Part shown: in pieces, positions 53,226-57,508 of the stretch
Layout: each line of letters opens with the position of its first letter
How positions within the stretch are numbered: position 1 is the first letter of the stretch
Assembly (NCBI GenBank): GCA_027459705.1
Contig: DAIDHM010000200.1
Coordinates: forward strand, 1 to 64,000
DNA: 64,000 nt
Reading direction: 5' to 3'
Source: Ktedonobacteria bacterium
GTDB taxonomy: Bacteria > Chloroflexota > Ktedonobacteria > Ktedonobacterales > JACDGC01
Made by a program: the position numbers and the translations under genes
The notes under the pieces: model-generated
Told to the model about the DNA's origin: nothing
Database searches by the model: none
Seen by the model: the letters and a program-made list of their open reading frames with translations, nothing else

Positions 53226-54350
53226 ATGACACGCGTGGTAATCGCCATGAGCGGCGGTGTGGATAGTTCCGTGGCAGCGGCCTTGCTGAAGCAGCAAGGC
53301 TATGATGTCGTTGGCATTATGTTACGACTCTGGTCAGAGCCGGTGCCAGAAGATGCCGATGAGGTTGTGCGCGTCGCGGAGAACAAGTGTTGCTCATTGG
53401 AATCGGTCTATGACGCGCGGCGCGTAGCGCAGAAGCTGGACATTCCCTTCTACCTCATCAATGTCGAAGATCAGTTCCGCCAGACCGTGGTGGATTTCTT
53501 CTACGACGAATACGAGGCCGGGCGGACACCCAATCCCTGCCTGCGCTGCAACCGGTCGATCCGCTTCACCACCCTGTTGGAGCGCGCACTGGGATTGGGG
53601 GCCGAGTATCTGGCGACGGGACACTACGTGCGCGTCGATGATGACCCCGCCACGGGGTTACGGCGATTGCGGCGCGGGGTGGATCGCGCCAAAGACCAAT
53701 CATATGTCCTGCACGTGCTGCAACAGGAGCAACTCCGGCATGCGATGTTTCCCTTGGGCGAGTTGACCAAGCCGGAGGTACGCGCGCTGGCGGCGGAATT
53801 TGGCCTGGAAGTGGCACAGAAGGCGGAGAGCCAGGAGATCTGCTTTGTCGCCGACAATGACTATCGCGGCTTCCTGCGGCGCTATGCGGCCAAGCGCGGT
53901 GAAGTGCCCGCGGGAATGGTGCGCGGCCCGATCCTGACGCTCGATGGCGTGCGGTTAGGTGAGCATCAGGGATTGGCGAACTACACGATTGGCCAGCGCA
54001 AGGGATTGGGAATCTCGACACTGGAACCAGTGCATGTCGTCAAAATGGATCGCGCGCAGAACGCGCTGATCGTCGGCCCCGCCAGCGCACTGGAGCGGAT
54101 GAGTTGCACGGTACGCGAAGTGACCTATCCGCGCGGCATCATTCCCACCGCGCCATTTCCGGCGGCCGTGCGCATCCGCTACAAAGCGGCAGAGATCCCC
54201 GCGCTCGTCACCCCCCTCTCTGATAGAGAGGTACGGATCGACTTCGAGTCTCCAGTCCGTTCGACCACACCGGGACAGGCGGCGGTCTTCTATGGTGGCG
54301 CAACTGGTGACGAGGTTTTAGGAGGCGGTATCATTTTCAACGAGAATTGA
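53226..54350 (+). CDS. mnmA: tRNA 2-thiouridylase
   Basis: Adds sulfur to position 2 of wobble U34 in tRNA-Lys/Glu/Gln, working with a sulfur relay. 374 residues. PP-loop motif AMSGGVDSSVAAALL, then CLRCN with C105, ATGHY, and the second catalytic C206 in QEICFV. The C-terminal beta-barrel has VIPKKGLGISTLEPVHV-like features (GQRKGLGI). ATG at 53226. Standalone gene, no other tRNA modification genes nearby. Uracil thiolation partner IscS and TusA are not in the window. Confidence 0.96.
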   Translation: MTRVVIAMSGGVDSSVAAALLKQQGYDVVGIMLRLWSEPVPEDADEVVRVAENKCCSLESVYDARRVAQKLDIPFYLINVEDQFRQTVVDFFYDEYEAGRTPNPCLRCNRSIRFTTLLERALGLGAEYLATGHYVRVDDDPATGLRRLRRGVDRAKDQSYVLHVLQQEQLRHAMFPLGELTKPEVRALAAEFGLEVAQKAESQEICFVADNDYRGFLRRYAAKRGEVPAGMVRGPILTLDGVRLGEHQGLANYTIGQRKGLGISTLEPVHVVKMDRAQNALIVGPASALERMSCTVREVTYPRGIIPTAPFPAAVRIRYKAAEIPALVTPLSDREVRIDFESPVRSTTPGQAAVFYGGATGDEVLGGGIIFNEN

Positions 54351-54378
54351 TAGGAGCGATCTGTAAGGGTACCCCGGT

Positions 54379-55530
54379 CTAGGGCTGTGTAGCTTGAGTG
54401 GTACCAAGGAAACGTGCGAGGATATGTGACGGCTCCTCCAGCGTTTCCCGGCGCAACGAATAATAGCTCAGATGATCGCGCATATGCACGGTCACCAGAC
54501 CCGCCGCTCGTAGCCGGATCATATGGTGGCGGGTCGTCGCCTTCGTCAATTTCAGATGTTCCGATAGCTCGGTCAAATACATCTGGCGGTCCGCGAGATG
54601 GCGCAAGATACGAAGCCGCGTATCATCTGCCAGCGCCTCGAAGAGTCGCACCATCTCGCGTCGACTATTGGCTTCTTGTTCAGCGGCAGTCTTCGCCGAT
54701 TCAAGGATCGGATAGCAATAAGTCAGCGTGTCATCCACGGTGAAACTGAAGACGATGGGCATAATCATGACACTCGGCGCCAGAATGATCCGCGTGACGT
54801 GGGCAGGCATCTCAAAAGCAATGCCATGAATGACTTCGGTAAAAATCTGCGCTGGCGGCAGCAACATTTGTCGTTTCTTCTGGAACTCCACCTCGCGGCG
54901 CAGTGAGGGCATGATGCGCTCCGCTTCAGCCGCGAAGAAACCTTCGTACCATTGGCGCAGCATACCGACGAAGATGAGCCGTTCCCCTTCGGGATCTTCC
55001 AGAAGGCGTCGTACAGCGAGGCGTTCGATAGGGGGATAGCGCCTGATGAAAGCGGCGATGCGTGGCATGACCTCGTCGCGACTTTCCGCATTCTTGTACT
55101 GTTGGATGATACTCCTGGCCACCTCGCGCCAGTCATCCCCCAATCCGTTACTCTCCATAATCGGGATCAAGACTTCTTCAACTGGGATGGTTTCCATCCA
55201 GGCTAAAGTCGCCAAAATATCTTGCGGATCCGGCGAGAGGTTGAATATGCCATAGATGTGGACCGCGTGCAATCCGCCACGTTCCTCCTCGCCAAAGTAA
55301 AACGAGAGGCGATCGACGAGGTCTGGCGAGCAGGCAGCGCGGGCCCGTTCGATCCATTGGGGATCGAGATCGGCTTCGGAATAAAATGATGCGTTAAACG
55401 CAATGTGCAGGCTCAAGATCATGTCGAAGAGAGGGCTCGCAATAAATGTCAGAGCGGGAGGATTCGGTCGGGGCAGGGGAAGTTCAACATGGCGGATGTG
55501 ATTATTCCCCTCATCATCGTGTTTAGACAT
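54379..55530 (-). CDS. ArsR-type regulator with a large N-terminal domain
   Basis: 383 residues. The C-terminal part (about 290-370) is an ArsR-like winged helix: RLFEALADDTRLRILRHLADRQMYLTELSEHLKLTKATTRHHMIRLRAAGLV. The N-terminal about 280 residues resemble the DUF5937-type domain found fused to ArsR helices in Actinobacteria and Chloroflexota; it is all-alpha with several Trp/Tyr clusters (FASPLFDMILSLHIAF-like). The usual metal-binding Cys of ArsR are absent, so a small-molecule or protein signal is more likely. ATG at 55530. Convergent with mnmA. Target unknown. Confidence 0.82.
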   Translation of the reverse strand: MSKHDDEGNNHIRHVELPLPRPNPPALTFIASPLFDMILSLHIAFNASFYSEADLDPQWIERARAACSPDLVDRLSFYFGEEERGGLHAVHIYGIFNLSPDPQDILATLAWMETIPVEEVLIPIMESNGLGDDWREVARSIIQQYKNAESRDEVMPRIAAFIRRYPPIERLAVRRLLEDPEGERLIFVGMLRQWYEGFFAAEAERIMPSLRREVEFQKKRQMLLPPAQIFTEVIHGIAFEMPAHVTRIILAPSVMIMPIVFSFTVDDTLTYCYPILESAKTAAEQEANSRREMVRLFEALADDTRLRILRHLADRQMYLTELSEHLKLTKATTRHHMIRLRAAGLVTVHMRDHLSYYSLRRETLEEPSHILARFLGTTQATQP

Positions 55531-55708
55531 CGCAAGACTCCTCTCGTCGGGTCCCTCAAAATCGCATCGAGGTGGGAAACATGGAAAACAACCATGCCTT
55601 CAGGTGCAGGTCTGCGTGTCGCCTCAATGGGTATCAACCATTATGGTATGGGATTGGCCAGGTCGTCGTCAAGCAAGCAAGAAGATCAACCGATTTCACC
55701 CATACGAG

Positions 55709-55737
55709 TGGCGATCGTCGCGCGTATATGGTATGCT
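55709..55737 (+). promoter_or_regulatory. Promoter for the small basic ORF
   Basis: TGGCGA (55709-55714), 17-base spacer, TATGCT (55732-55737). About 45 bases before the TTG start. The -35 matches the mnmA one (TGGCGA). Confidence 0.45.
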
Positions 55738-55783
55738 CTAGCGTGTCATATACGGAAATCATACGACAAAGGAGGTGGTGCAG

Positions 55784-55900
55784 TTGTCGGGACGTGGCGC
55801 GGTGAAAAATCGTATCAAGGCGCGCAACTTGCGCCGAGGACTTTTGGCACGACGAAAGCGCAACATCGGGCGCAAAATGCGACAGAAGCGGGGCGTATAG
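55784..55900 (+). CDS. Tiny, very basic protein (38 residues)
   Basis: Too short for usual gene finders. TTG start at 55784 with AAAGGAGG 8 bases upstream; stop TAG at 55898-55900. The 38-residue product has 16 Arg/Lys and no Asp or Glu. It begins MSGRGAVKNRIKARNL and ends RKMRQKRGV. It has a promoter candidate and a strong terminator (55916-55950), so it forms a complete transcription unit. Charge and size recall small ribosomal proteins (bL36, bTHX, bS22/mS38-like), but I do not see a match to any of them. Possible RNA or DNA binder. Confidence 0.6.
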   Translation: MSGRGAVKNRIKARNLRRGLLARRKRNIGRKMRQKRGV

Positions 55901-55915
55901 CCTCGAACGGCACAG

Positions 55916-55950
55916 GAGAGGGAGGTGACCAGCGTGGTCGCCTCCCTCTC
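55916..55950 (+). terminator. Strong terminator hairpin
   Basis: A 15-bp stem with one G-T pair (GAGAGGGAGGTGACC at 55916-55930 with GGTCGCCTCCCTCTC at 55936-55950), 5-nt loop, then ATTTC. It ends the small basic ORF and, on the other strand, the M19 remnant. Confidence 0.65.
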
Positions 55951-55956
55951 ATTTCA

Positions 55957-56361
55957 TCACGCGCGCCACACTGTCTGATATAACCGCAACCAATTGCCAC
56001 CCATGATTTGCCGTACGTGCTCCGGTGTGTAGCCCCTCGTCAACAATGCCTGTGTGACGTGCACGCATTCGGCGATCGAGGTGAAACCGACCAATGGAGG
56101 TGCATGCAAGAATGTCTCCAACATTTCTGGCGGCATGCCACGGAGGACGCGCAGGGCCACCTCACGTGGCATGTGTTCCATGAAATCCGGACCCAGACCA
56201 ACTTGATCGATTCCGACCAAATTCACCAGTGTATCAATGATGGCAATATAATCGTCCAGGGTCGCATTGAAGTTGCCTGTGACCATCAAAGGAAATGCCA
56301 CTGCACCAATGACGCCACCGCGCCATGCGGTAGAATCAGGGCGTATAGCGTCGTGCAGCAC
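55957..56361 (-). pseudogene. C-terminal remnant of an M19 (renal) dipeptidase
   Basis: 134 codons matching only the end of peptidase M19: GGVIGAVAFP, LDDYIAIIDTLVNLVGIDQVGLGPDF, FTSIAECVHVTQALLTRGYTPEHVRQIMGGNWLRLY. A whole M19 protein is about 330-400 residues and carries most zinc ligands in the missing N-terminal two thirds. Upstream in this frame a TGA lies five codons before the GTG start, and no longer frame is found. So this is a truncated, inactive gene or a relic of a deletion; the DNA up to the next gene (56448) shows no clear remainder. Confidence 0.7.
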
Positions 56362-56447
56362 GTGCGCGGGGATGGATCAATCGCCCCCTCTCGTCGTTGG
56401 CGGCGCCAGCACCATAGGCAGATTCTGTTAAACTGAGTTACCCGGTG

Positions 56448-57353
56448 CTACGGTTTCTGGCCAAAGGCCACGTAGAAAGGTTGCACCGCGCGAGAACGGG
56501 CGAATTCCTCCGGCAAGCGCGCCAGGGCCGCGCTATATTCCTCAGCGGAGGCAATGCCTTGCGAGACCACCGGGCCTTGCATGCCGCCCATCAAGGAAAG
56601 GCCATTCGTCTGTAACATCAGCCCGACATGGCCACCATATGGCCCAATCGGTCCTGGAATCTCGCGGCTGACAACCCGGACTAAACCCGCCTCCGTGAGA
56701 AAGCCGCCGATGCGCTCGCCGAATTTTGGCTCAATGCCAAAGCGCTTGCTCATGGTGATGCCCCAGTCAATGATCTGGGTCAAGGCGGGACCACCATCGC
56801 GTGGCAAGCTACCCTCGGTGAGTTCGATCCACCCACCGCGGGTGGTCACGCGAGCTAACTCGCGAACCATACCCCCCCATTGCTGCGATGGGATCGCGCC
56901 AGCCAGGAACCGCATATGCACATACTCGAAATTATTGTCAGGGAACGGCAGTCCTTCCAGGATGTTCGCTTTGAGGAAAGTGTAGTTCTCGGGCAAGGAG
57001 GCGACACCTTCGCCCAGGATACCGGTCTGTTCGGCAGGAGGATCAGCGATATCGACGCCAACAACATTGGCATCCGGAAAGATGGTCGCCATTTCGATCG
57101 CCCAGCGACCTGTACCCGAGCCTACATCCAGGATACTCAGCGGTGACCGCAGGGGCGCCGCGTAAGGTGCCTTGAGCAGGTAGCGCAAAATATAGTGCTG
57201 AAAATCGAGGCGTCGTTGCTCCATGAGATCATTCGGCAGAAGATAAGGGATAGTGGCGATCCGCCGTCGACCACCAAGAGTGACATAGCGTTGTCGTGCC
57301 GGTGACTCGGCCTCCGCTGTCCGGGCTTGTTTGCGCCAGTTCCACCAGGGCAT
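56448..57353 (-). CDS. SAM-dependent methyltransferase
   Basis: Class I methyltransferase, 301 residues. SAM motif I is SILDVGSGTGRWAIEMATIFP, with the acidic end of beta 2 in VVGVDIADPP; later motifs follow (FLKANILEGLPFPDNNFEYVHMRF, ELARVTTRGGWIELTEGSL). The layout resembles UbiE/cyclopropane-synthase-like small-molecule methyltransferases. The ATG at 57353 has GGAGG 7 bases upstream. Two hairpins lie in its leader (57380-57412 and 57438-57473). The substrate is unknown. Confidence 0.85.
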   Translation of the reverse strand: MPWWNWRKQARTAEAESPARQRYVTLGGRRRIATIPYLLPNDLMEQRRLDFQHYILRYLLKAPYAAPLRSPLSILDVGSGTGRWAIEMATIFPDANVVGVDIADPPAEQTGILGEGVASLPENYTFLKANILEGLPFPDNNFEYVHMRFLAGAIPSQQWGGMVRELARVTTRGGWIELTEGSLPRDGGPALTQIIDWGITMSKRFGIEPKFGERIGGFLTEAGLVRVVSREIPGPIGPYGGHVGLMLQTNGLSLMGGMQGPVVSQGIASAEEYSAALARLPEEFARSRAVQPFYVAFGQKP

Positions 57354-57379
57354 CAAGATACCTCCAGAAGGATGAGAGC

Positions 57380-57412
57380 AGCGGCCTGACGGGTAGCTCC
57401 GCACAGGCCGCT
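57380..57412 (-). promoter_or_regulatory. Hairpin in the leader of the methyltransferase gene
   Basis: AGCGGCCT (57380-57387) and AGGCCGCT (57405-57412), perfect 8 bp with a 17-nt loop, ending about 27 bases before the start. Confidence 0.35.
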
Positions 57413-57437
57413 CCACAAGAAACCAAATGGTGTGCTC

Positions 57438-57473
57438 GCCTGCTCATGCTAACATATATGAGCAAGAGCAGGC
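57438..57473 (-). terminator. Terminator of the Etf-oxidoreductase operon
   Basis: GCCTGCTC/GAGCAGGC 8-bp stem, which can instead form a 7-bp TGCTCAT/ATGAGCA stem with a shorter loop. It lies 36 bases after the stop of the membrane oxidoreductase on the minus strand. Confidence 0.5.
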
Positions 57474-57508
57474 AGAACCCCAGTGGATCTTCCCCTGGTC
57501 AGCCGCCA

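Follow-up and report, generated by a model that had tools for sequence, protein, structure and literature searches.

A conserved gene for a 38-residue, Arg/Lys-rich protein of Ktedonobacteria and its possible role at the ribosome

The window, a stretch of 64,000 nucleotides from a Ktedonobacteria bacterium, carries a single-gene transcription unit for a conserved, basic and predicted helical protein of 38 amino acids. The protein belongs to a real, conserved and undescribed microprotein family. By analogy, the reading that we consider the most likely, with chances of about even, is that of a lineage-specific accessory ribosomal protein that would work in the manner of bS22 or eL41.

The transcription unit and its conservation

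The elements of the unit, i.e., the -35-like box, the -10 hexamer, the Shine-Dalgarno sequence, the TTG, the 38 codons and the TAG, were all re-read, with both strands of the region inspected, and the coordinates given in the initial annotation are correct (Table 1). The hexamer TATGCT (55732-55737) lies 17 nt behind TGGCGA and is part of the extended motif TGNTATRCT, which was found upstream of all five genes of the family, 46-89 nt ahead of the start codon. The background frequency of this motif is 0.0042 per 110 nt, which gives a naive probability of ~1e-12 for five out of five, with the motif being defined on the same sequences. The Shine-Dalgarno sequences of the relatives (AAAGGGA, AAAGGAA or AAAGAGAG) are located at similar places. 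As a transcription unit the region therefore stands on its -10 element and Shine-Dalgarno sequence, but the -35 box is weak and does not recur in the homologs.

Downstream of the stop codon a hairpin of 16 pairs (one G-U) with the loop GCG is predicted, and none of 200 shuffled sequences folded as stably. This hairpin (55916-55950) is unlisted by the consensus scan. Since it is followed only by ATTTCAT, which is no true T-tract, it is best described as an imperfect intrinsic terminator; the 15-bp terminator proposed before thus holds for its strong stem, whereas a good T-tract is absent. Hairpins or T-runs are also present downstream of the homologs. No Rfam match was obtained in 54300-57500 at E ≤ 1.

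Table 1. Features of the 38-codon gene and its flanks in the window.
Feature	Position	Strand	Remarks
ArsR/DUF5937 regulator	54379-55530	-	flanks the 38-codon gene
-35-like box TGGCGA	55709-55714	+	3/6 matches to TTGACA; not common to relatives
Extended -10 promoter TGGTATGCT (TGNTATRCT)	55729-55737	+	motif common to 5/5 homologous genes
Shine-Dalgarno sequence AAAGGAGG	~55768-55775	+	8 nt before TTG 55784
38-codon gene	55784-55900	+	TTG start, TAG stop 55898-55900; product MSGRGAVKNRIKARNLRRGLLARRKRNIGRKMRQKRGV
16-bp hairpin, probable terminator	55916-55950	+	weak T-tract; fold z = -6.8
Peptidase M19 (membrane dipeptidase) fragment	55957-56361	-	profile positions 226-318 of 319 only

The encoded protein contains 16 Arg/Lys residues among its 38 amino acids, no Asp or Glu and no Cys, which confirms the 42% Arg/Lys and the absence of acidic residues reported initially. 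Among the 1354 candidate starts for frames of 30-60 amino acids in the 64-kb window, three frames reach at least 36% Arg/Lys without acidic residues, and only the 38-codon gene is preceded by a Shine-Dalgarno sequence.

Homologs were searched in 200 related genomes. They were found in four of the five other genomes examined from the same family (G001-G004), all with 38 amino acids, aligning without gaps and showing 55-74% identity to the protein of the window. In all four an ATG is aligned with the TTG, supporting TTG 55784 as the start codon. Stops and frameshifts in relatives, on which the initial annotation had made its claim depend, were looked for and none were found, the frame being intact in all four homologs. 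Sixteen columns are invariant (M1, G3, G5, A6, R10, A13, R14, N15, R17, G19, R24, K25, R26, Q34, G37 and V38), and Asp, Glu and Cys are absent throughout the five members, which carry 14-16 Arg/Lys residues each (37-42%). The closest pair (G002/G004) shows 7, 2 and 19 differences at codon positions 1, 2 and 3, respectively (dN 0.09, dS 2.0, dN/dS ~0.05), and an excess at the third position is seen in 10/10 pairs, with dS saturated in several. Judged from these substitutions, the protein is under purifying selection. G005, the sixth genome, has a contig matching the neighbourhood of G003, but this contig starts beside a repeat and misses the expected gene by ~400 bases; since it ends before this place, absence from G005 is not informative.

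A short frame with a TTG start and a weak -35 box could be taken for a chance ORF with chance signals. However, conservation in four other genomes, the synonymous-biased change, the aligned ATG and the common promoter motif all argue against this, and the intact, ungapped homologs exclude chance. At the level of sequence this extremely improbable reading is in practice already refuted by conservation, and the ORF is almost certainly a genuine gene. It is too short for most gene finders; that such programs would miss a real gene here is supported, as both frame and promoter are conserved across genera.

Distribution and comparison with small ribosomal proteins

The range of the family was searched with a profile built from the five members. 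This profile gave no convincing match when run against the remaining 41 genomes of the order and against 400 genomes sampled from the phylum, and in contigs of 84,980 species the sole match (L058) belongs to the same MAG as G003. Viral contigs and plasmids gave no match to the family, so that a mobile origin is unsupported. Likewise, neither the protein nor the profile matched anything in Pfam, NCBIfam or PDB, the best match of a single member being DUF6243 (E = 0.12, in one of the five). The previous statement that the protein fits no known family is borne out by these searches, and it is the lack of a match in all three databases that makes this conserved family noteworthy.

Several weaker candidates were rejected. 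Beyond the family, single-sequence searches gave weak matches (E 0.02-0.1), many of which correspond to elongation factor P genes or to the antisense frame of such genes; the others are frames contained in further long ORFs and do not represent homologs. The weak profile matches within the order and the phylum are located in ORFs that are either unrelated or out of frame.

The initial annotation had likened the protein to small ribosomal or nucleic-acid-binding proteins, naming bS22/mS38, bTHX and bL36. These comparisons were run and membership failed for each of them: the resemblance holds for the composition and the predicted helix, but not for the sequence, which shows no homology to bS22/mS38, bTHX, bL34 or bL36.

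Like bS22 (PF08213 COX24_C, AURKAIP1/COX24 domain) and mS38, the protein is very short, Arg/Lys-rich and helical, escapes annotation and is patchily distributed. It differs in its length (38 versus ~32 amino acids), its lower Arg/Lys content, the missing GSVIKKRRKKM signature and the undetectable homology. PF08213 matches 14 of the 121 Chloroflexota genomes searched and finds nothing in G000-G005 or in any genome of the order to which the window belongs, with 13 Chloroflexota other than G000-G005 being over its cut-off. A typical Chloroflexota bS22 (L059-L068) reads GSVIKKRRKKMRKHKHKKMLKKTRWQRR, and bS22/mS38 is patchy in the phylum. In similarity tests against seven targets with column-shuffled controls, the comparison with Chloroflexota bS22 gave z = 2.1 (p = 0.03 among seven comparisons, not significant), eL41 was not above its shuffled controls (z = 0.8) and bTHX was below them (z = -1.1). 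A bS22/mS38 (COX24_C) member that has diverged beyond recognition by sequence search would agree with the weak similarity to bS22 and with the presence of COX24_C elsewhere in the phylum and its absence from this order. We nevertheless consider it very unlikely, because none of the five members matches COX24_C at E ≤ 10, the signature GSVIKKRRKKM...K.TRWQRR is lacking, genuine Chloroflexota bS22 is easily recognised and most Chloroflexota without bS22 are also without the 38-residue protein.

With bTHX, a short basic protein of the 30S subunit, the window protein shares an N-terminal GKG, the Lys of which is, however, not conserved among the family members. It does not match the Thx profile (PF17070), for which no genome of the order is over the cut-off; a Thx-like match in G025 was discarded because it falls, out of frame, within an ORF of 611 codons that apparently encodes an ABC transporter. 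bL34 and bL36 are similar in size and charge, but the L34 profile (PF00468) gave no Pfam match and the L36 profile (PF00444) no match either, Cys for a zinc site being absent. As separate bL36 (G000:C96), bL34 (G000:C126) and bS21 are present in the same genome, the 38-residue protein is no disguised copy of or substitute for these. Near the bL34, bL36 and bS21 loci that were read, TGNTATRCT is absent except for one match far from the gene concerned, and co-regulation with these genes is therefore unsupported.

The eukaryotic and archaeal eL41/eS32 is a single basic helix as well and shows a local look-alike, RKMRQ(R/K), but eL41 has only 25 amino acids and is more basic. Finally, bL37/bL38 (Actinobacteria; Bacteroidota, Borrelia) are lineage-specific small ribosomal proteins that were found through structures, and some were unannotated (PMC10618245, PMC10085706). 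Unlike for these, no sequence in PDB matches the 38-residue protein or its profile, and we found no paper on a cryo-EM ribosome structure from Chloroflexota.

Possible function of the protein

AlphaFold2, run with two sequences, predicts one helix spanning residues 4-36 with a mean pLDDT of 90.7. Single-helix predictions are easily obtained for Arg/Lys-rich peptides and are not diagnostic. eL41 has this predicted form, and so does bS22, although its helix is bent. Conservation was not significantly biased to one helical face (p = 0.07).

The fixed length and fixed residues (16 invariant, no indel) speak for a specific binding site and against an effect of generic charge, and together with the invariant Gly, Asn and Gln, the lack of acidic residues, the free-standing expression and purifying selection they fit a defined nucleic-acid site. 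As an accessory ribosomal protein, the long Arg/Lys-rich helix with its Gly-containing ends (N-terminal MSGxGA, C-terminal RGV) would insert into a groove of the rRNA and steady it, a mode of action like that of bS22, mS38 and eL41 without detectable sequence kinship. The helix as the bound form, the rRNA target and the ribosomal location are what we infer from this analogy. bS22, mS38 and eL41 are basic helices that lie next to h44/h45/h27, close to the interface with the 50S subunit (PMC10618245, PMC6582356, PMC10085706), and the bS22 pocket in the small subunit is formed at h2/h27/h44/h45 (PMC10618245). The precedent of Borrelia bS22, which was unannotated when found and has a GUG start and 61% Arg/Lys (PMC10618245), illustrates that such ribosomal proteins escape annotation.

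In favor of the ribosomal role, the protein is of the general kind of a small lineage-specific ribosomal protein, being short, basic, conserved and under purifying selection, and no genome of its order shows a detectable PF08213 bS22 or a bTHX over the cut-off. Against it count the missing sequence homology to any ribosomal protein and the Arg/Lys content of 37-42% versus 55-65% in bS22/eL41 (PMC10085706). The absence from other families of the order, as far as it can be judged from the sequence searches, would be unusual for a core part of the ribosome but not for accessory ones, which may be patchy, as the 14/121 for bS22 illustrates. More specifically, and as a tentative suggestion that is somewhat less likely to be right than wrong, the protein might represent a new ribosomal family of independent origin, private to one Chloroflexota family, that fills an rRNA pocket, perhaps the one of bS22/mS38/eL41. 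If the protein is ribosomal, the known ribosome composition of Chloroflexota is incomplete and bacterial lineages go on gaining ribosomal proteins of their own, overlooked by annotation, as for bS22 and bL37/bL38.

The same chemistry would suit a small RNA-binding regulator or a translation or hibernation factor with transient contacts to the ribosome or to some other RNA, as opposed to a stable ribosomal protein. That the protein is not universal in the order agrees with such a role, but the five neighbourhoods contain no gene of such a process and we regard it as rather unlikely. Also unlikely is a DNA-binding protein of the protamine or nucleoid type with a role in condensing or protecting the chromosome, e.g., in spores or stationary phase. 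A highly basic, acid-free, predicted helical product of a free-standing gene would be in line with this, but neither an exact length nor 16 invariant residues, with Gly, Asn and Gln among them, would be needed for non-specific neutralisation of charge. A secreted cationic antimicrobial peptide is highly improbable: the predicted helix is cationic, and bS22 and bL37 peptides inhibit bacteria in vitro (PMC10085706), but a leader peptide is absent, no transporter or immunity gene is common to the five neighbourhoods and the sequence is strongly conserved rather than diversified.

Genomic neighbourhood

The flanking genes differ among the five genomes and no neighbour is conserved, which indicates that the gene is free-standing and that selection acts on the protein itself. 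The peptidase M19 fragment next to the gene in the window is probably a truncated remnant, i.e., a pseudogene, and beyond it a methyltransferase gene is located on the minus strand. In G003 a NUDIX frame lies close downstream on the same strand as the 38-codon gene, so that co-transcription is possible in this genome. Near the gene of G003 an element of ~56 bases (L028:9874-9930) is present that recurs at several contig ends of G005, with copies spaced ~112 bases, where the assembly of G005 breaks. In G007 (L033, ~1300-1470) a series of GTTAGAAGCTGGCTGAATCTCCGCTGGAGATTGAAAC repeats that is apparently a CRISPR array was observed beside a transposase-like frame.
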